Assembly: GCA_028285415.1 (NCBI GenBank)
Contig: JANQPF010000009.1
Coordinates: 62,001-126,000 of the forward strand
DNA length: 64,000 nt
Direction: 5' to 3'
From: Pseudomonadales bacterium
Lineage (GTDB): Bacteria; Pseudomonadota; Gammaproteobacteria; Pseudomonadales; Azotimanducaceae
In this document: positions 933 to 12,277 of the stretch, piece by piece
Layout: each line of letters begins with the position of its first letter
Position numbering within the stretch: position 1 is the first letter of the stretch
The notes under the pieces: generated by a model
Told to the model about the DNA's origin: nothing
Seen by the model: only the letters and a program-made list of their open reading frames with translations
Databases searched by the model: none
Position numbers and translations under genes: made by a program

Positions 933-1967
933 TCAGATGGTGTGGCAAAACTCCGCAATGCTGGCCGCGGTTGCATAACTCACATCCGGACACGCCGCTG
1001 AGAAGATTTCAATCCCGTGGCTTGTGCCCATGACCTGAATGCAGCGGGCAGACACGCCCGCTCGCAACAGCAAACGGTAAAACTCGATACCCTCATCGCG
1101 TAGCGGGTCACATTCGTTGACGCTGATCACGGTCGGGACCAGCCCCGCCACGTCTTCTTCGTCCGCAAACAGCGGCCAGGCCAGCGGGTCTTTCGCCTCG
1201 AAAGCATCGATGCCGTAAGCCATCCGGCCACGGTTGTCATGGAGGTCGAGGAGAATACCGTTGTTCTCTACCGAAGAAGCGAGCCGCTCCTGAGGCCATT
1301 CACCGGCAATGTACGGGCAGAGGGCGTAGAGACCGCGAATCAATCCGAGGTTGCCTTCCTGCTTCAGCTTCATGCCCGTCGCCAGCGTGAGGTTGCCACC
1401 ACCGCTCTCCCCCGCAACGATGATGTGTGCCGGATTGATGTTGAGCCCGGCAGCGCTGTCGACCAGCCATTTGAGGCCCGACACACAGTCGTTCAGGCCC
1501 GCCGGGTAGGGCGCCACTTCAGGCGCGGAAGAAGGCTGCAGGGCGTTGCGGAAATCAACCATGGCCACCGCCACGCCCTGATGCGCGATGATTCGTCCCC
1601 AGGAACGGTACATACCGTCATAACAGGACATGAACTGCATACCGCCGCCATGGATGTAGTACACGCAGGGCAATACGTCTGTGCCCTCCGGACGAATGAA
1701 CTGGACTTTCACGGTATTGCCGTCGGGGCTCGAGGTGAACTCGTGGGTAGCAACGTCAAGCCCCGCCGACGGGGCAATCTCTTCGTTGTCGAGCATCTCC
1801 ATCATTGCAGTCATCGCCGCCTGCCTTTCAAGGGCCTCGGGTGCGTTGACTTCCTCGAGGAGGGCTTCGCGGGACTCGACGTCACCCTGCGACGCGGCGG
1901 CCGGGAACGCGCCCATGATGGCTTTGATTCGCGGGTCCAGACGAGGGTCTTCACTGATGGTCGGCAT
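933..1967 (-). CDS. Alpha/beta hydrolase, hormone-sensitive-lipase-like esterase
   Basis: A 344-residue protein with the HSL-family oxyanion motif HGGG (YYIHGGGMQF, about residue 106), the nucleophile elbow GESGGG (about residue 190), an acidic residue in NECDPLRDEG and a final His in GTSHGIE. That is the complete Ser-Asp-His triad of carboxylesterases (family IV). It has no signal peptide and should hydrolyse small acyl or aryl esters in the cytoplasm; the substrate cannot be told. The start is the ATG preceded by an AGCCAAC-type weak ribosome site. It lies 61 bases downstream of the molybdopterin gene on the same strand, so the two hydrolases may follow it in one transcript. Confidence 0.9.
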   Translation of the reverse strand: MPTISEDPRLDPRIKAIMGAFPAAASQGDVESREALLEEVNAPEALERQAAMTAMMEMLDNEEIAPSAGLDVATHEFTSSPDGNTVKVQFIRPEGTDVLPCVYYIHGGGMQFMSCYDGMYRSWGRIIAHQGVAVAMVDFRNALQPSSAPEVAPYPAGLNDCVSGLKWLVDSAAGLNINPAHIIVAGESGGGNLTLATGMKLKQEGNLGLIRGLYALCPYIAGEWPQERLASSVENNGILLDLHDNRGRMAYGIDAFEAKDPLAWPLFADEEDVAGLVPTVISVNECDPLRDEGIEFYRLLLRAGVSARCIQVMGTSHGIEIFSAACPDVSYATAASIAEFCHTI

Positions 1968-2028: not shown

Positions 2029-4233
2029 CTAGCCCTGCAGCACCATCTCCGACATGTTTGCCGGCGCATTGGTCTTGACGATACGGCCGGGGAATCCTTT
2101 GAAATGGGGTATGCCCTGCTCCACATCGAGATACTCGTCATCATCCGAACAGAGCACCGCATCGCTCGAGATGAAAGCACCCGCGAGTTCCGCCGTGCCG
2201 CGCAGCTCCGGATACCACCAGCCGTGAGGCACGCGCAGATGCCCTTCTTTCATCGATGCCTGGACGGATACCTTGGCGGTTACCGTGCCATGCTCGGTTT
2301 CGAGCCGCACCCAGTCACCGTCCTGTACGCCTTCGCGCTCGGCGTCCTCGGGATGCAGAAAGATCTTCGGCGACGGCGTCCGCGCACGTAAAGATTCGAT
2401 GTTGCGCTGACCGGTCTGGAAAAACGGATCTTCCCGTACCCCGGTAAAGACGCGGTAAGGATAGTCAGCGGAAACTTCGGGCCCTTCGCGATGATACGGC
2501 AGCGGGTCGAAACCCAGCGCTTCCAGCACGCTCGAGAAGAGCTCCACCTTGCCCGACGGGGTGGCGAAACCCACGTTGCGGTACTTGTGAAGATTCGGTG
2601 GCGGCGCTTCCATATAGGTTTCCGCCTCGAACTCAGCGAAGCTCCGCCCGGAGCGCGACAGGCGGTGATCGAGTATCTCTTCGATACTCTGCCACGGGAA
2701 ATGCTCACCGTAGCCGAAGCGGTGCGCCAGGTCGCGCCAGAACTGAAACGTGCTCGACGCCTGTGCCGGAGGTTCGACCGCTTTCTGCGAAAGGGTCAGA
2801 CGCGTTCCCCAGCTCCAGGAGTCCGCTACGTGATTGCGCTCGGAAAAAACGTCGCCCGGCAGCACGTAGTCCGCGAGCATTGCGGTAGGCGTCATGAACA
2901 GCTCGTGCGCAACGATCAGCTCCTGATTCATCATGCCTTTCAAAATCTGGTGCTGATTGGGATAGGAGAGAAGGGCGTTGTTGCCGAGTGCAAAGAACGC
3001 TTTGACCGGGTAAGGATCCTCATGTGCCATGGCGCGAAACACGTTCGTGGGATTTGCCATCTGGCAGCCCATGACAAGGTCCGCGTAGGGGTAGCCCCAC
3101 ACGCGTTCGGTGGGTTCTTTCAGCATCTCCGCCACCCGGTAGGTAAACGCCGGGTGATCGTCGTAGCCAAGCTGTTTCTCTTTCTGCACCAACGGCAGCG
3201 CGTCGTGCAGTCCGAGCTCGGACTCGGGAATATAGCCGGGATTGAAACCGCCGAGAGATTCTCCACCCGGGGCATCGAGGTTGCCGGTCACCGCGCGCAG
3301 AATCGAGTGCAGACGGATGGCGGAAGTCGACGAAACCTGCTGATCCGTGATGGGCGTCCACGGGATGACCGCCCCTTCTGCCGTCGCGTACATGCGCGCC
3401 GCTTCGGCGATGAGTTTGCGATCAACGCCGGTGATCGCTTCCACCCGCTCGAGCGGGTATTCGTCAACGCGGGCTTGCAGCGCATCGAAGCCCGTGCAGT
3501 ACTCCTCCACGAACGCTTTGTCGTAGAGTCCTTCGTCGAAGATGACCTTGAGCCAGCCAAGGCACATGGCCGCATCGGTACCGGCGCGCAGGCGCAGGTG
3601 CAGGTCCGCGGTTTCCGCCTGATCCGACACTCTCGGATCGAGGACAATGACTTTGGCCCCCTGGGAACGCGCGAAGTTGATGGCATTGTAGATTGGCGTC
3701 CACGAGTGTTTGCGCGGGTTGTGACCGAAGAGCACGATACACTTCGTGTTCGCGAAGTCCGGCTGCGGAAACCAGCCGTAGGTCAGCCGATTGACGGCAG
3801 CGGTGTTGCCGGCGCAAAGCGCCACCCCGCTGATCCAGTTGGGGGAGCCCAGCAGATTCATGAAGCGCCGATCCAGGCTGTGCGTACTCTGCGTGTTCCA
3901 GCCGGACGTGGAAACTGCAAAGCTCTCCGGGCCGTATTTATCCACCACCGCCCGCAGGCGTTCGGCAATCTCGTCCATCGCCTGCTCGTATGAGATTTCC
4001 TCCCACCTGTCTTCACCCCGCTCGCCGACGCGTTTGAGCGGCACGCGCAGGCGATCTTTGTGGTTGTGAATCTCCGGTGCGGTGACACCTTTGAAACAGA
4101 TGTTCTGGGCGAGCATCGGGTTGTCGTGGGCGATGACACGCGTCACCTTGCCATCGACGGCTTCCGTACGCAGCTGGCAACCGATGTCGCAGATCGTACA
4201 GACGGAGTACCTGGTCTCTACCGCTTCACTCAT
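2029..4233 (-). CDS. Molybdopterin (bis-MGD) enzyme resembling acetylene hydratase
   Basis: A 734-residue DMSO-reductase-superfamily protein. The N-terminal [4Fe-4S] site is C12-x2-C15-x3-C19-x26-C46, and C140 (motif ALCAGNTA) is the likely W/Mo ligand. C15 is followed by Asp16, and the cluster region ends ICFK. From memory, acetylene hydratase of Pelobacter acetylenicus has the same CxxCD start, Cys141 as tungsten ligand and the catalytic Asp13. Long stretches such as RRFMNLLGSPNW and PYPVKAFFAL, and Trp178/Trp292, also match that enzyme. Formate dehydrogenases and nitrate reductases usually carry other residues there. No Tat signal is seen, so it is cytoplasmic. I start at ATG 4233, which overlaps the MarR stop as ATGA; the open frame continuing upstream only shadows MarR. 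Function as a hydratase is inference; a redox role is possible. Confidence 0.88.
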   Translation of the reverse strand: MSEAVETRYSVCTICDIGCQLRTEAVDGKVTRVIAHDNPMLAQNICFKGVTAPEIHNHKDRLRVPLKRVGERGEDRWEEISYEQAMDEIAERLRAVVDKYGPESFAVSTSGWNTQSTHSLDRRFMNLLGSPNWISGVALCAGNTAAVNRLTYGWFPQPDFANTKCIVLFGHNPRKHSWTPIYNAINFARSQGAKVIVLDPRVSDQAETADLHLRLRAGTDAAMCLGWLKVIFDEGLYDKAFVEEYCTGFDALQARVDEYPLERVEAITGVDRKLIAEAARMYATAEGAVIPWTPITDQQVSSTSAIRLHSILRAVTGNLDAPGGESLGGFNPGYIPESELGLHDALPLVQKEKQLGYDDHPAFTYRVAEMLKEPTERVWGYPYADLVMGCQMANPTNVFRAMAHEDPYPVKAFFALGNNALLSYPNQHQILKGMMNQELIVAHELFMTPTAMLADYVLPGDVFSERNHVADSWSWGTRLTLSQKAVEPPAQASSTFQFWRDLAHRFGYGEHFPWQSIEEILDHRLSRSGRSFAEFEAETYMEAPPPNLHKYRNVGFATPSGKVELFSSVLEALGFDPLPYHREGPEVSADYPYRVFTGVREDPFFQTGQRNIESLRARTPSPKIFLHPEDAEREGVQDGDWVRLETEHGTVTAKVSVQASMKEGHLRVPHGWWYPELRGTAELAGAFISSDAVLCSDDDEYLDVEQGIPHFKGFPGRIVKTNAPANMSEMVLQG

Positions 4234-4664
4234 GATGTCCCTCCAACGGATTCCGGTATGTATTTCAGGTCTGAGAGCAGCTCCTTGAGAAGCGTGTAAC
4301 GCTCGCCCCCAAGCTGCGCTTTCATTTCGTTCTGCATGCCCGACCACAGCGGCACGGCTCTTTGAAACGCGCGCCTGCCTTTGCGGGTGACTTTGATGAC
4401 ACGGGTCCGCGCATCTTCCCCCGCCGACATGCTGACCATGCCGGCGGCTTCCAGCACGCGCACGTTGCGCCCGAGCGTACTGCGGTCGAGACCCGTCGCC
4501 TCGGCAACGCGTTGCAACGTCGGCTGCGCCAGCATCTGAATGGTGTGTAATTGTGAGAACTGGGTGACTGAGATACCCGCAGGCGCGAGGGCGGCGTCGT
4601 AGCGCCGGGTCAGATTCTGTGCCGCGCCGCGCAGGTCGATGCACAGACAGGTTTCTTCGCTCAT
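4230..4664 (-). CDS. MarR-family transcriptional regulator
   Basis: A 144-residue winged-helix protein. The recognition region reads QRVAEATGLDRSTLGRNVRVLEAAGMV (residues about 55-80; only motif pieces matter: TGLDRSTLGRNV), followed by the wing GEDARTRVIKVTRKGRRAF. Both are classical MarR features. Its stop overlaps the start of the molybdopterin gene by four bases (ATGA), so the two are translationally coupled and it very likely regulates that gene as well as itself. An inverted repeat at 4665-4703, just upstream of its start, is a good candidate operator. The N-terminus contains two Cys residues (CLCID), which could give redox or ligand sensing, but this is speculation. Confidence 0.9.
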   Translation of the reverse strand: MSEETCLCIDLRGAAQNLTRRYDAALAPAGISVTQFSQLHTIQMLAQPTLQRVAEATGLDRSTLGRNVRVLEAAGMVSMSAGEDARTRVIKVTRKGRRAFQRAVPLWSGMQNEMKAQLGGERYTLLKELLSDLKYIPESVGGTS

Positions 4665-4703
4665 TAGGGGTATCTACCCATAAAAAACGTGTATATACCC
4701 CTA
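4665..4703. promoter_or_regulatory. Inverted repeat, likely MarR operator
   Basis: TAGGGGTAT at 4665-4673 is repeated in inverse as ATACCCCTA at 4695-4703. Inside it GGGTA-TC-TACCC (4668-4679) forms a second small palindrome. The element abuts the MarR start codon (4664) and faces the truncated haemoglobin gene at 4762, so it may control both directions. The A/T-rich centre (TAAAAAACGTGTATATA) could hold the promoters. Confidence 0.6.
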
Positions 4704-4761
4704 TTTACAGGCACAGGCAAGCGGCGTGTACAATTTCACTCTGCAAACTGTGAGATCAGAC

Positions 4762-5181
4762 ATGTCGGATGCGGCGAACTACGGCGAAGGTGACGCAACC
4801 TTCCAGGCCGCTGGCGGGGAGGCCGGCATTCGAGCCCTGGTCGAAGATTTCTACGACATCATGGCCTCGAATCCGGCGTATCGGACCATCTTTTCCTGGC
4901 ATCCGGAAGACATCAGCATCTCAGTCGACAAGCTGGCACGGTTTCTGTGCGGCTGGATGGGCGGACCGCGCCGCTACACCGAGAAATACGGACGCATCAG
5001 CATTCCCGGCGCTCATCAACATCTGAACGTGACGGTGGCGGAACGGGATCAGTGGCTCGGGTGTATGCGTGACGCGTTGGATCGCCAACCCTATCCAGAG
5101 TCGTTGAAGACCTATCTCATCGACGCGCTGTCCGTTCCCGCCCAGGCGGTGCATCGGGTGAGCCAGGCGCAGCGCCCCTGA
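4762..5181 (+). CDS. Truncated haemoglobin, group II
   Basis: About 139 residues from ATG 4762 (a GTG at 4726 in the same frame is possible). The protein shows the trHb2 pattern: FQAAGGEAGIRALVEDFYDIM at the start of the fold (AGGEAGIRALV is diagnostic), then the FCGWMGGPRRYTEKYG stretch, the proximal-His region IPGAHQHLNV, and ERDQWLGCM with the conserved Trp of helix G. Group II globins bind O2 or detoxify NO and peroxide in the cytoplasm (family knowledge). It is divergent from the MarR/molybdopterin pair across the inverted repeat at 4665-4703, suggesting shared control and perhaps oxygen or NO protection of the Fe-S enzyme (inference). Confidence 0.9.
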   Translation: MSDAANYGEGDATFQAAGGEAGIRALVEDFYDIMASNPAYRTIFSWHPEDISISVDKLARFLCGWMGGPRRYTEKYGRISIPGAHQHLNVTVAERDQWLGCMRDALDRQPYPESLKTYLIDALSVPAQAVHRVSQAQRP

Positions 5182-10283: not shown

Positions 10284-10801
10284 TCATCCGCCTGCTGATC
10301 ACATTCGTTCTGCTCGCCGCCATGCCGGCGTACGCCGAAACACCTCCGGCAATTGATGGACCCTTCATCGAAGCTGACGACGTGACCTGGAAGGTCAACC
10401 AATTCAACGTGGCTCGCTGGAAGACGCTGGTCGGCGGCATCGAAGGTGGACAGATCGACGCTGAAGACGTCCAGTTTGGTCTATGGGAGCTGGCCCCCCG
10501 GGCGACCTACCACGGTCACAAACACGACGCGCCCGAGATCTACCACCTGCTCTCCGGCAAAGCGCTGTGGCAGGTTGGCGAGCAGAGCCGTGAGGTCACA
10601 GGCGGCAGTACCATCTACACGAAACCCGGCCAGATGCACAAGATGACGAATCTCAGCGACGAACCCGTGAGCGCCATCTGGATCTGGTGGGCACCGGGCG
10701 GAGATACCGCCGTTTTCAGTGCACCGTACATCTTCACCGAGCCCCCGCCAGAGCCACCCAACGGGGTGCCGTTCGAATCTGAGTCGGAGCGTGTGCACTA
10801 G
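10283..10801 (+). CDS. Secreted cupin-domain protein; start codon uncertain
   Basis: A single cupin barrel with metal ligands His-His-Glu-His visible in YHGHKHDAPEIYHLLSG and the second-motif His in GQMHKM. A good signal peptide (VIRLLITFVLLAAMPAYA) is read only if translation begins at GTC 10283 or ATC 10286; the ribosome site AAGGAG at 10272-10277 is correctly placed for this. The first ordinary start, ATG 10322, would remove almost the entire signal. The GTC therefore looks like a mutated GTG overlapping the TAG of the cytochrome gene, or a rare start. The protein is probably periplasmic and belongs to the amine dehydrogenase operon. Its reaction is unknown; cupins include lyases, isomerases and dioxygenases. 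Confidence 0.75.
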   Translation, partial: VIRLLITFVLLAAMPAYAETPPAIDGPFIEADDVTWKVNQFNVARWKTLVGGIEGGQIDAEDVQFGLWELAPRATYHGHKHDAPEIYHLLSGKALWQVGEQSREVTGGSTIYTKPGQMHKMTNLSDEPVSAIWIWWAPGGDTAVFSAPYIFTEPPPEPPNGVPFESESERVH

Positions 10802-10813
10802 CGGAGTCGACCA

Positions 10814-12277
10814 ATGCAGATCAATGCCTTCCTGCTGAGATTCGCCGCGACGGCGTGGGTGCTGAGCGCGTCACTGCATGTCGCAGCCGACAGCCTGGCG
10901 ATTGTCGGCGGGCGCGTCATGGATCCGGAGAGCGGCCTCGACGCCATCCGCCATGTTCTCGTCGAGGATGGCCGAATCGTCGACATCAGCGAGACCGTGC
11001 CTGACGCGGACCAGACCATCGACGCTACCGGTCTGGTGGTGGCACCCGGCTTCATTGATCTGCACGCCCATGGACAGGATCTACCCAGTAACCGCTTTCA
11101 AGCAGCGGACGGTGTCACCACCGCGCTCGAGCTCGAAATCGGCACCTGGCCCATCGCGCGTTTCTACGAGATGCGCGCCGGGAAAGCCCTCCTGAACTAC
11201 GGATCGACGGTCAGCCACGTCATTGCGCGTCACGCGGCGGTTGAGGGTCGCGAAGACGTCACCGCAAATCTCGCGGCCTACTTCCAGAGCGCGTTTGGCG
11301 CCGCGTCCGCGCGGCGCCCCGTATCGGAGACAGAGCTTACCTATGCCCTCGAGCTGATGCGCGAAGGCATGCGTCAGGGTGGGCTCGGCTTCGGCTTCGG
11401 CATCACCTATACACCTGGCGCAAGCCACGCCGAGATCTACCGGGCGTTTGCGCTAGCGGCAGAAATCGGCGCCCCGGTATTCGTGCATATGCGCGGCGCT
11501 GAACGAATGGGCGGTGATCTGCTGGCACCGATACAGGAGGTTGTGAGCAACGCGCTGACCACGGGGACCGCGCTGCACATCGTGCATCTCAACTCCAGCA
11601 CCAACGAATCCGCGCGCCCGGCGCTTGCGATGATTCGCGCGGCCCGCGAGGCAGGTCTCGACGTCACCACGGAGTCTTATCCATATACCGCAGGTTCCAC
11701 GCTCATCCAGAGTGCGCTGTTCGACAACTGGGACGGTGACTATGGGCTCCTGCAATGGGCCGCAACGGGTGAACGTTTGACGGCGGAGACGTTCCAGAAA
11801 TACCGCGCGGAAGGCGGCGCGGTGATCATCCACGGCCGCAACGAGGCCACCAACGCGTGGATTGTGAGCCAACCCGACGTCATCGTTGCGTCAGACGGCA
11901 TTTCCTTCGCCTGGGGGGCTGCTCATCCGCGCGGCGCCGGCACATACGCAAAGGTCCTCGGTTACTATGTCCGAGAGACCGAAGCGCTGGACCTGATGAC
12001 CGCACTGTCGAAAATGACGCTTCTGCCGGCCCGTCGGCTGGAAGCCATAGCGCCCGCAATGCGGCGCAAAGGTCGGGTCCAGATAGGCGCGGACGCTGAC
12101 TTGACGCTGTTCGATCCCGCAAGAGTCATCGACAAAGCAACATACGTGGATACACGACAATACTCCGAAGGCATCGAATACGTGCTCGTCGGCGGCGTGG
12201 CTGTTATTGCAGACGGCGAACTGGTTGAAGGGGTTTATCCCGGGAAACCCATCTACGGGCGCCTGAAAGCGGATTGA
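10814..12277 (+). CDS. Exported amidohydrolase, N-acyl-D-amino-acid deacylase family
   Basis: A 487-residue metal-dependent hydrolase with signal peptide (to about residue 25, ASLHVAA). Domain order is a short beta-sandwich strand (LAIVGGRVMDPESGLDAI), the metal motif GFIDLHAH (about residue 80), barrel segments with HIVHLNSS and TTESYPYTAGS, a catalytic-Asp region VIVASDGIS, and the closing beta-sandwich GRVQIGADADLTLFDP. This is the D-aminoacylase/dihydroorotase-like layout (PF07969 type). It follows the cupin gene by 12 bases as the last gene of the amine operon. It might release amines or amino acids from acylated forms in the periplasm, feeding the dehydrogenase (inference). Confidence 0.88.
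   Translation: MQINAFLLRFAATAWVLSASLHVAADSLAIVGGRVMDPESGLDAIRHVLVEDGRIVDISETVPDADQTIDATGLVVAPGFIDLHAHGQDLPSNRFQAADGVTTALELEIGTWPIARFYEMRAGKALLNYGSTVSHVIARHAAVEGREDVTANLAAYFQSAFGAASARRPVSETELTYALELMREGMRQGGLGFGFGITYTPGASHAEIYRAFALAAEIGAPVFVHMRGAERMGGDLLAPIQEVVSNALTTGTALHIVHLNSSTNESARPALAMIRAAREAGLDVTTESYPYTAGSTLIQSALFDNWDGDYGLLQWAATGERLTAETFQKYRAEGGAVIIHGRNEATNAWIVSQPDVIVASDGISFAWGAAHPRGAGTYAKVLGYYVRETEALDLMTALSKMTLLPARRLEAIAPAMRRKGRVQIGADADLTLFDPARVIDKATYVDTRQYSEGIEYVLVGGVAVIADGELVEGVYPGKPIYGRLKAD

Follow-up and report, generated by a model that had tools for sequence, protein, structure and literature searches.

The 734-residue protein encoded on the minus strand at positions 2029–4233 of the window (the whole stretch of 64,000 nucleotides analyzed here) is, judged by its sequence, a member of a recognized but uncharacterized subfamily of acetylene hydratase (AH), in which the catalytic residues of AH are kept and two residues of the hydrophobic pocket are changed. 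We give about an even chance to the reading that it is a single-subunit, non-redox hydratase of the AH type, whose reshaped pocket would serve a small unsaturated substrate other than acetylene. Within its group, AH alone is described as biochemically characterized (excerpts of PMC6013536 and PMC7858054), its mechanism as a matter of little consensus, and its relatives as biochemically uncharacterized (excerpt of PMC12096430).

Identity, fold, and phylogenetic position

The open reading frame (ORF), which starts with ATG at 4233 and whose stop codon ends at 2029, lies where an earlier note on this DNA had placed an AH-like enzyme. Search, alignment, tree, and predicted fold all describe its product as an AH-type bis-MGD (Mo or W) enzyme. 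In a phmmer search of the PDB, the top match is AH of Pelobacter (Syntrophotalea) acetylenicus (2E7Z, EC 4.2.1.112), at 682 bits and E = 7.5e-204 over residues 8–713, with 47% identity; the thiosulfate (polysulfide) reductase chain 2VPW of Thermus follows at 224 bits, 458 bits behind, and formate dehydrogenase H (FDH-H, 1AA6) scores 187 bits. The latter two share the superfamily fold and the 4Fe-4S domain with the window enzyme, but the tree separates them from the AH clade. Pfam recognizes three molybdopterin-enzyme domains, and no NCBIfam model reached its cut-off among the 25 of 27 matches listed. The long blocks RRFMNLLGSPNW and PYPVKAFFAL, which the earlier note had matched to AH, are indeed identical there.

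An AlphaFold2 model built on 39 rows (mean pLDDT 91.1, pTM 0.92; cofactor-free) superimposes on 2E7Z over its full length with TM scores of 0.93/0.94 and an rmsd of 1.9 Å in Foldseek, the runner-up being a formate dehydrogenase with a TM score of 0.77 and an rmsd of 5.0 Å. The search E value and this full-length fold match together rule out chance similarity to AH.

A tree of 56 rows (IQ-TREE, LG+C20+F+G4) places the protein with 2E7Z in an AH superclade of 31 rows (support 100/100), apart from FDH-H and polysulfide reductase, so that tree and fold both bear out the claim of an AH-like enzyme. The superclade also takes in two genes from our Actinomycetota sample and a plasmid gene of Rhodococcus opacus, which is its first branch. 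The remaining 30 rows (100/99) comprise AH's own branch, formed by AH, L145, and L147 (94/81, not starred; 100/99 for AH plus L145), and a sister clade of 27 rows (100/99), hereafter the window clade, to which the window protein belongs. This clade has two subgroups, one of 8 rows (100/99) that are about 55–59% identical to the window protein, and one of 19 rows (100/100), the window protein included, at 67–83%. Long branches were flagged for the PDB rows, RhizCB3090, L052, L166, L164, L152, L145, L051, and R. opacus.

Three groupings, chosen after the tree had been inspected, were submitted to AU tests. A union of the window clade (27 rows) with FDH-H (p-AU 3.5e-06) or with 2VPW (p-AU 1.2e-05), each of these references being one long-branch row, was rejected, as was a group of AH, L145, L147, and R. 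opacus that excludes the window clade (p-AU 5.2e-07); a further FDH-H test, on the window row alone, was weak. The formate dehydrogenase and thiosulfate reductase clades, which the earlier note had set against its own claim, are thus rejected as a home for the protein, and arsenite oxidase, at about 32 bits in the PDB search, had no row in the tree.

The basal R. opacus gene, a molybdopterin-dependent oxidoreductase (WP_120661552.1, plasmid pRop44186_a of strain DSM 44186), is 42% identical to the window enzyme and branches outside AH and the window clade together. R. opacus is a species with an aerobic life, and our literature search found no account of strain DSM 44186 as an acetylene isolate. 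The position of this gene bears on one alternative to a new substrate, namely that the window clade consists of genuine acetylene hydratases of aerobes, converting acetylene to acetaldehyde, in which Trp and Ala at two ring positions are a compensated pair that keeps the pocket volume. We think this unlikely, but the tree speaks for it: the window clade lies nearer to AH than the R. opacus gene does, and if that gene also hydrates acetylene, the window clade branches from within the acetylene hydratases.

A second alternative, to which we give a similarly low probability, is that the protein is a redox enzyme, a dehydroxylase or reductase resembling the catechol dehydroxylases and served by soluble electron carriers. 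In its favor, the catechol dehydroxylases Dadh, Hcdh, and Cldh, which catalyze a redox reaction and are compared here by description only, are presented as the bis-MGD enzymes most closely related to AH (PMC7028382, excerpt).

By record title, rows of Pseudomonadota, Actinomycetota, Myxococcota, and Spirochaetota are intermixed in the window clade, which suggests transfer, most of the rows being bins and possibly contaminated.

Active-site and pocket residues

The 4Fe-4S cysteines of the window enzyme are C12, C15, C19, and C46 (Cys9, Cys12, Cys16, and Cys46 in AH), and its metal ligand is C140 (Cys141). At the catalytic site, Asp13 of AH corresponds to Asp16, Lys48 to Lys48, and Met140 to Leu139. 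AH has a hydrophobic ring of six residues, which we take to be Ile14, Ile113, Ile142, Trp179, Trp293, and Trp472; four of these recur in the window protein, as Ile17, Trp178, Trp292, and Trp473, and the exceptions are Trp112 for Ile113 and Ala141 for Ile142. Every residue that the earlier note had named is present (C12-x2-C15-D16, C19, C46-x-K48, C140, A141, W178, and W292). That note had seen the alanine and suggested that specificity may differ, which the ring supports, but it had missed both the change at Ile113 and the sixth ring residue, Trp472.

Not all of these residues mark an AH. In an alignment of 65 rows, all 37 with Asp13 (six of them second copies of the same locus) also have Trp179 and Trp293, whereas none of the 28 rows without Asp13 has Trp179 (four lack the stretch), and position 13 is otherwise His, Gly, Pro, or Tyr. 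Asp13 and Trp179 are thus diagnostic. Lys48 and the cluster cysteines, which the earlier note also listed, are not: Lys48 occurs outside the AH clade in 16 of 25 rows with a letter there (28 rows, three gaps). Trp293 is likewise found in many rows that lack Asp13. The R. opacus protein shares Asp13, Trp179, Trp293, and Trp472. For the redox alternative the pattern is unfavorable, since outside the AH clade position 13 is never Asp and Trp179 is missing.

A census of 116 loci (88 distinct sequences, 28 repeats) found Asp16, Lys48, Cys140, Trp178, and Trp292, as well as the four cluster cysteines, in all 116, Ile17 in 113, and Trp473 in 106 (replaced by Phe in seven, Tyr in two, and Ser in one). 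The pair W112 and A141 occurs in 113 of the 116 loci and in 85 of 85 distinct window-clade sequences; none of the three others has it. These are the R. opacus locus L133, with Leu at AH position 142 and, at 113, Ile in the MAFFT alignment but a gap in BLAST; L145, with Leu at 113 and Met at 142; and L147, with Tyr and Met at these positions. On the tree the pair is a single change, and a literature search on AH relatives found no account of a W113/A142 clade, although one may still exist.

The pocket isoleucine that has been mutated in AH is reportedly the one at position 142. The published account speaks of an isoleucine in the hydrophobic binding pocket, whose exchange for alanine markedly reduces activity (PMC6013536, excerpt), and the specificity of AH for acetylene is described as unique (PMC4653830, excerpt); both points tell against acetylene as the substrate of the window clade, and by the published mutagenesis the clade's pocket should be poor for it. 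The retention of the catalytic residues, on the other hand, is what an acetylene hydratase would require. Among these, Asp13 cannot be replaced in AH by Ala, which abolishes activity, although Glu is tolerated (PMC12096430, excerpt).

A third possibility is a non-redox transfer of sulfur or hydroxyl, as in the metallopterin-dependent ergothioneine synthase or pyrogallol transhydroxylase. A C–S bond-forming relative, 27% identical to AH (PMC9516567, excerpt), indicates that the scaffold does more than hydrate. That enzyme is much farther from AH than the window enzyme is, however; Pfam finds no desulfurase domain fused to the window enzyme, which moreover keeps Asp13 and the AH tryptophans, and we consider this possibility very unlikely.

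Redox partners and metal

Within 3 kb of the enzyme, the window holds no ORF with a CxxCxxCxxxC motif, in agreement with the earlier observation that no formate or nitrate reductase partner stands beside it. The clade at large is similar. Of 80 clade loci, one (L083) has such an ORF, of 73 residues, at a distance of up to 1.5 kb, compared with 13 of the 21 other MopB loci and one of three other AH-clade loci, that of R. opacus; at 3 kb the count is 1 of 81 (L126, a large flavoprotein-like ORF), 52 of the 81 loci spanning 3 kb on both sides. In published AH loci, by contrast, an Fe-S protein gene is nearly adjacent to all putative and reference AHs but one (PMC7858054, excerpt), and in this the window and its clade are unlike AH.

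These counts weigh against a redox enzyme, which the ferredoxin gene near the R. opacus relative would otherwise favor. The absence of an Fe-S neighbor is by itself no proof of a non-redox enzyme, however, because none of the seven MopB paralogs of the window genome has one within 1.5 kb either. As to the metal, the window genome has ModA (molybdate) and no match to WtpA, and we take Mo to be the likelier metal here.

Distribution and host lifestyle

Among 200 genomes of the host's family, 67 (counting that of the window) match at E of 1e-50 or better, G002 only at 33%; as seawater contains little acetylene, so common a gene is a point against acetylene as the substrate. A sample of the class gave matches in 6 of 369 genomes at E of 1e-80, again counting the window's own, three of them at 33–37%. 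With AH as the query, 20 of 396 genomes of an Actinomycetota sample matched at E of 1e-60, and four (G568, G604, G782, and G937) carry an AH-clade gene. From a scan of named genomes we took the best 80 of 240 relatives, which by title are 51 Pseudomonadota, 13 Actinomycetota, 11 Myxococcota, one each of Spirochaetota, Acidobacteriota, and Binatota, and two unassigned; by the record titles of these best 80 of 240, then, the window clade occurs in at least six phyla.

The earlier note presumed an aerobic host, and by gene content the host is one, its genome encoding three COX1 (PF00115) proteins. We surveyed COX1 in 76 further genomes, with G002 excluded and window-clade residues read only in fetched loci. 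Matches to the window protein or to a fetched window-clade locus at 52% or more were present in 74, and 71 of these 74 have COX1 (heme-copper oxidase); the exceptions are the bins G065, G074, and G199. The window clade thus goes with oxygen-respiration genes. The two genomes that represent the AH side, G782 (L147) and G937 (L145), have no COX1, and in the heme-copper oxidase genes of its hosts the window clade differs from AH. The W113/A142 pair arose a single time, which leaves its association with aerobes without independent replication.

The earlier note also took the hydration of acetylene to be, in all other cases, a matter of strict anaerobes. This is contradicted by published aerobic acetylene users, among them Mycobacterium lacticola, Rhodococcus, and Bacillus, together with a Mo-dependent acetylene hydratase of R. 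opacus (PMC7858054, excerpt), and by further aerobic users cited elsewhere (PMC4653830, excerpt); we therefore reject the view that AH is confined to strict anaerobes. The existence of such organisms is a point in favor of genuine acetylene hydration by the window clade.

The MarR gene and its predicted operator

Upstream of the enzyme, on the same strand, a 144-residue MarR-family regulator (4230–4664, minus strand; Pfam MarR_2 and sequence) is the first gene of what appears to be a MarR-led operon, a feature that distinguishes the window from AH. Its stop codon and the enzyme's start codon share the four bases ATGA (4230–4233), preceded by GGAGGG, and with this overlap the two genes look like an operon. 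The globin and MarR genes that the earlier note saw beside the enzyme are thus both there, MarR overlapping it and the globin (Bac_globin, truncated-globin type; Pfam) transcribed the opposite way, at 4726–5181 on the plus strand, divergent from the operon. The MarR N terminus, TCLCIDLR, contains two cysteines that are retained in the relatives displayed and that might act as an electrophile sensor.

We searched the window MarR against 111 loci (L019–L049 and L053–L132). Ten matches, on five further distinct contigs, are all codirectional with and upstream of the enzyme, and in full-length matches the gap between the matched stretches is 27–83 nt. In L070, which is on the same contig as L035, the MarR match at 404–789 spans two frames, which is a frameshift or an assembly error in the bin.

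A box search revealed two putative operator boxes on the minus strand before the MarR gene: box 2, GGGTAGATACCC, at 4668–4679, ends three bases before the MarR start codon, and box 1, GGGTATATACAC, at 4689–4700, begins 21 bp upstream of box 2, the pair being shared with relatives. In all six MarR–enzyme operons (the window and the five others), a pair of palindromic GGGTANNTACCC-like boxes, 21–22 bp apart and with at most three mismatches, stands directly before the MarR start. Among 54 pairs spaced 19–24 bp in 1.11 Mb of sequence from 80 loci, only the five of MarR–enzyme operons have three mismatches or fewer. The window contains one exact copy of the box, where 0.01 would be expected, and the 5.97-Mb genome contains the pair without mismatch once (the reverse reading has 2). 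A wider MarR regulon did not emerge: across the whole window genome, no further pair has fewer than three mismatches, and sites with three are near the level of the backward-pattern control. In locus L123, a more distant MarR lies on the downstream side of the enzyme, with no such box pair there.

Other loci have a different regulator. A TetR-type gene lies directly upstream and codirectional in 11 of 80 loci and in the opposite direction in L128, five of the twelve having been checked with Pfam. The recurrence of MarR and TetR genes suggests that the enzyme is expressed inducibly.

Proposed reaction and its regulation

If the enzyme is a hydratase, the metal (Mo or W), held by two MGD and Cys140, would activate bound water or the substrate, as has been proposed for AH, while Asp16, above the metal, would move a proton; water would thereby be added to a small unsaturated molecule with no net change in redox state. 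In the ring, Trp112 would fill one side and Ala141 would make room on the other, where the metal ligand adjoins. With such a pocket, acetylene would probably not be the substrate, or not the sole one; our guess is a substituted alkyne or some other small compound with pi bonds. The MarR protein, probably bound to the box pair that precedes its own start, would turn on the operon in the presence of its ligand. Hydration, the pocket effect, repression, and induction are what we infer for the window system, the pocket effect in particular because block 111–120, which contains Trp112, has a mean pLDDT of 66 and the model is cofactor-free.

More broadly, the window clade could represent a second hydratase on the AH scaffold, widespread and horizontally spread among aerobes in several phyla (marine Gammaproteobacteria, Acidimicrobiia, a mycobacterium, and Myxococcota), specific for another alkyne or small unsaturated compound and, in some of these bacteria, kept silent by a dedicated repressor as long as that compound is absent. 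We find this plausible, although we would put it somewhat short of an even chance. Were it true, it would provide a second physiological substrate for non-redox Mo/W chemistry of the AH kind, and gene surveys that take these genes as a sign of acetylene use would give a wrong picture of such aerobes, should the substrate be a different one. The clade, with Ala at the AH position that was reportedly mutated and Trp elsewhere in the ring, is also a ready natural experiment on specificity, and the MarR operator offers a route to the inducer and perhaps to the substrate.

Gene neighborhoods

Downstream of the enzyme in the window, on the same strand, lies an alpha/beta hydrolase gene (Abhydrolase_3, Pfam; 933–1967, minus strand). 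No cluster of neighbors recurs in more than 12 of the 81 neighborhoods of the clade, and several clusters are kilobases away from the enzyme; by members scanned, the three that reach 12 consist of TetR genes, short-chain dehydrogenases, and P450s. According to Pfam, twenty neighbors in clade loci comprise many unlike enzymes. The neighborhoods are thus too varied for the substrate to be named from them. In Mycobacterium persicum, an aldehyde dehydrogenase ORF directly upstream of the enzyme would suit the production of acetaldehyde from acetylene, but by clustering no more than one further neighborhood among the 81 has this gene.

Several other genes near these enzymes may be recorded. On the R. 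opacus plasmid (L133, 12001–22164), the AH-like gene is accompanied by ferritin-like, ferredoxin FdxA, and moeZ genes amid transposases and integrases; if the strain uses acetylene, L133 is a candidate aerobic acetylene hydratase locus. Farther along the window, on the plus strand, 8225–9325 matches the methylamine dehydrogenase heavy chain (Pfam, E = 6.6e-47; NCBIfam, 170 bits against a cut-off of 454), and a small cupin at 10322–10801 with a Pfam match to DMSP_lyase (E = 8.2e-12) adjoins an amidohydrolase (10814–12277). L082 (5959–7173) and L108 (10248–11468) have similar genes directly downstream of the enzyme; that of L082 has a partial match to the glycine/betaine reductase GrdB (E = 1.6e-07), and that of L108 has none. 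Finally, L076 and L077 each carry a second copy of the enzyme about 0.3 kb away in the opposite orientation, tail to tail with the first, the copy in L077 being cut by the contig end.
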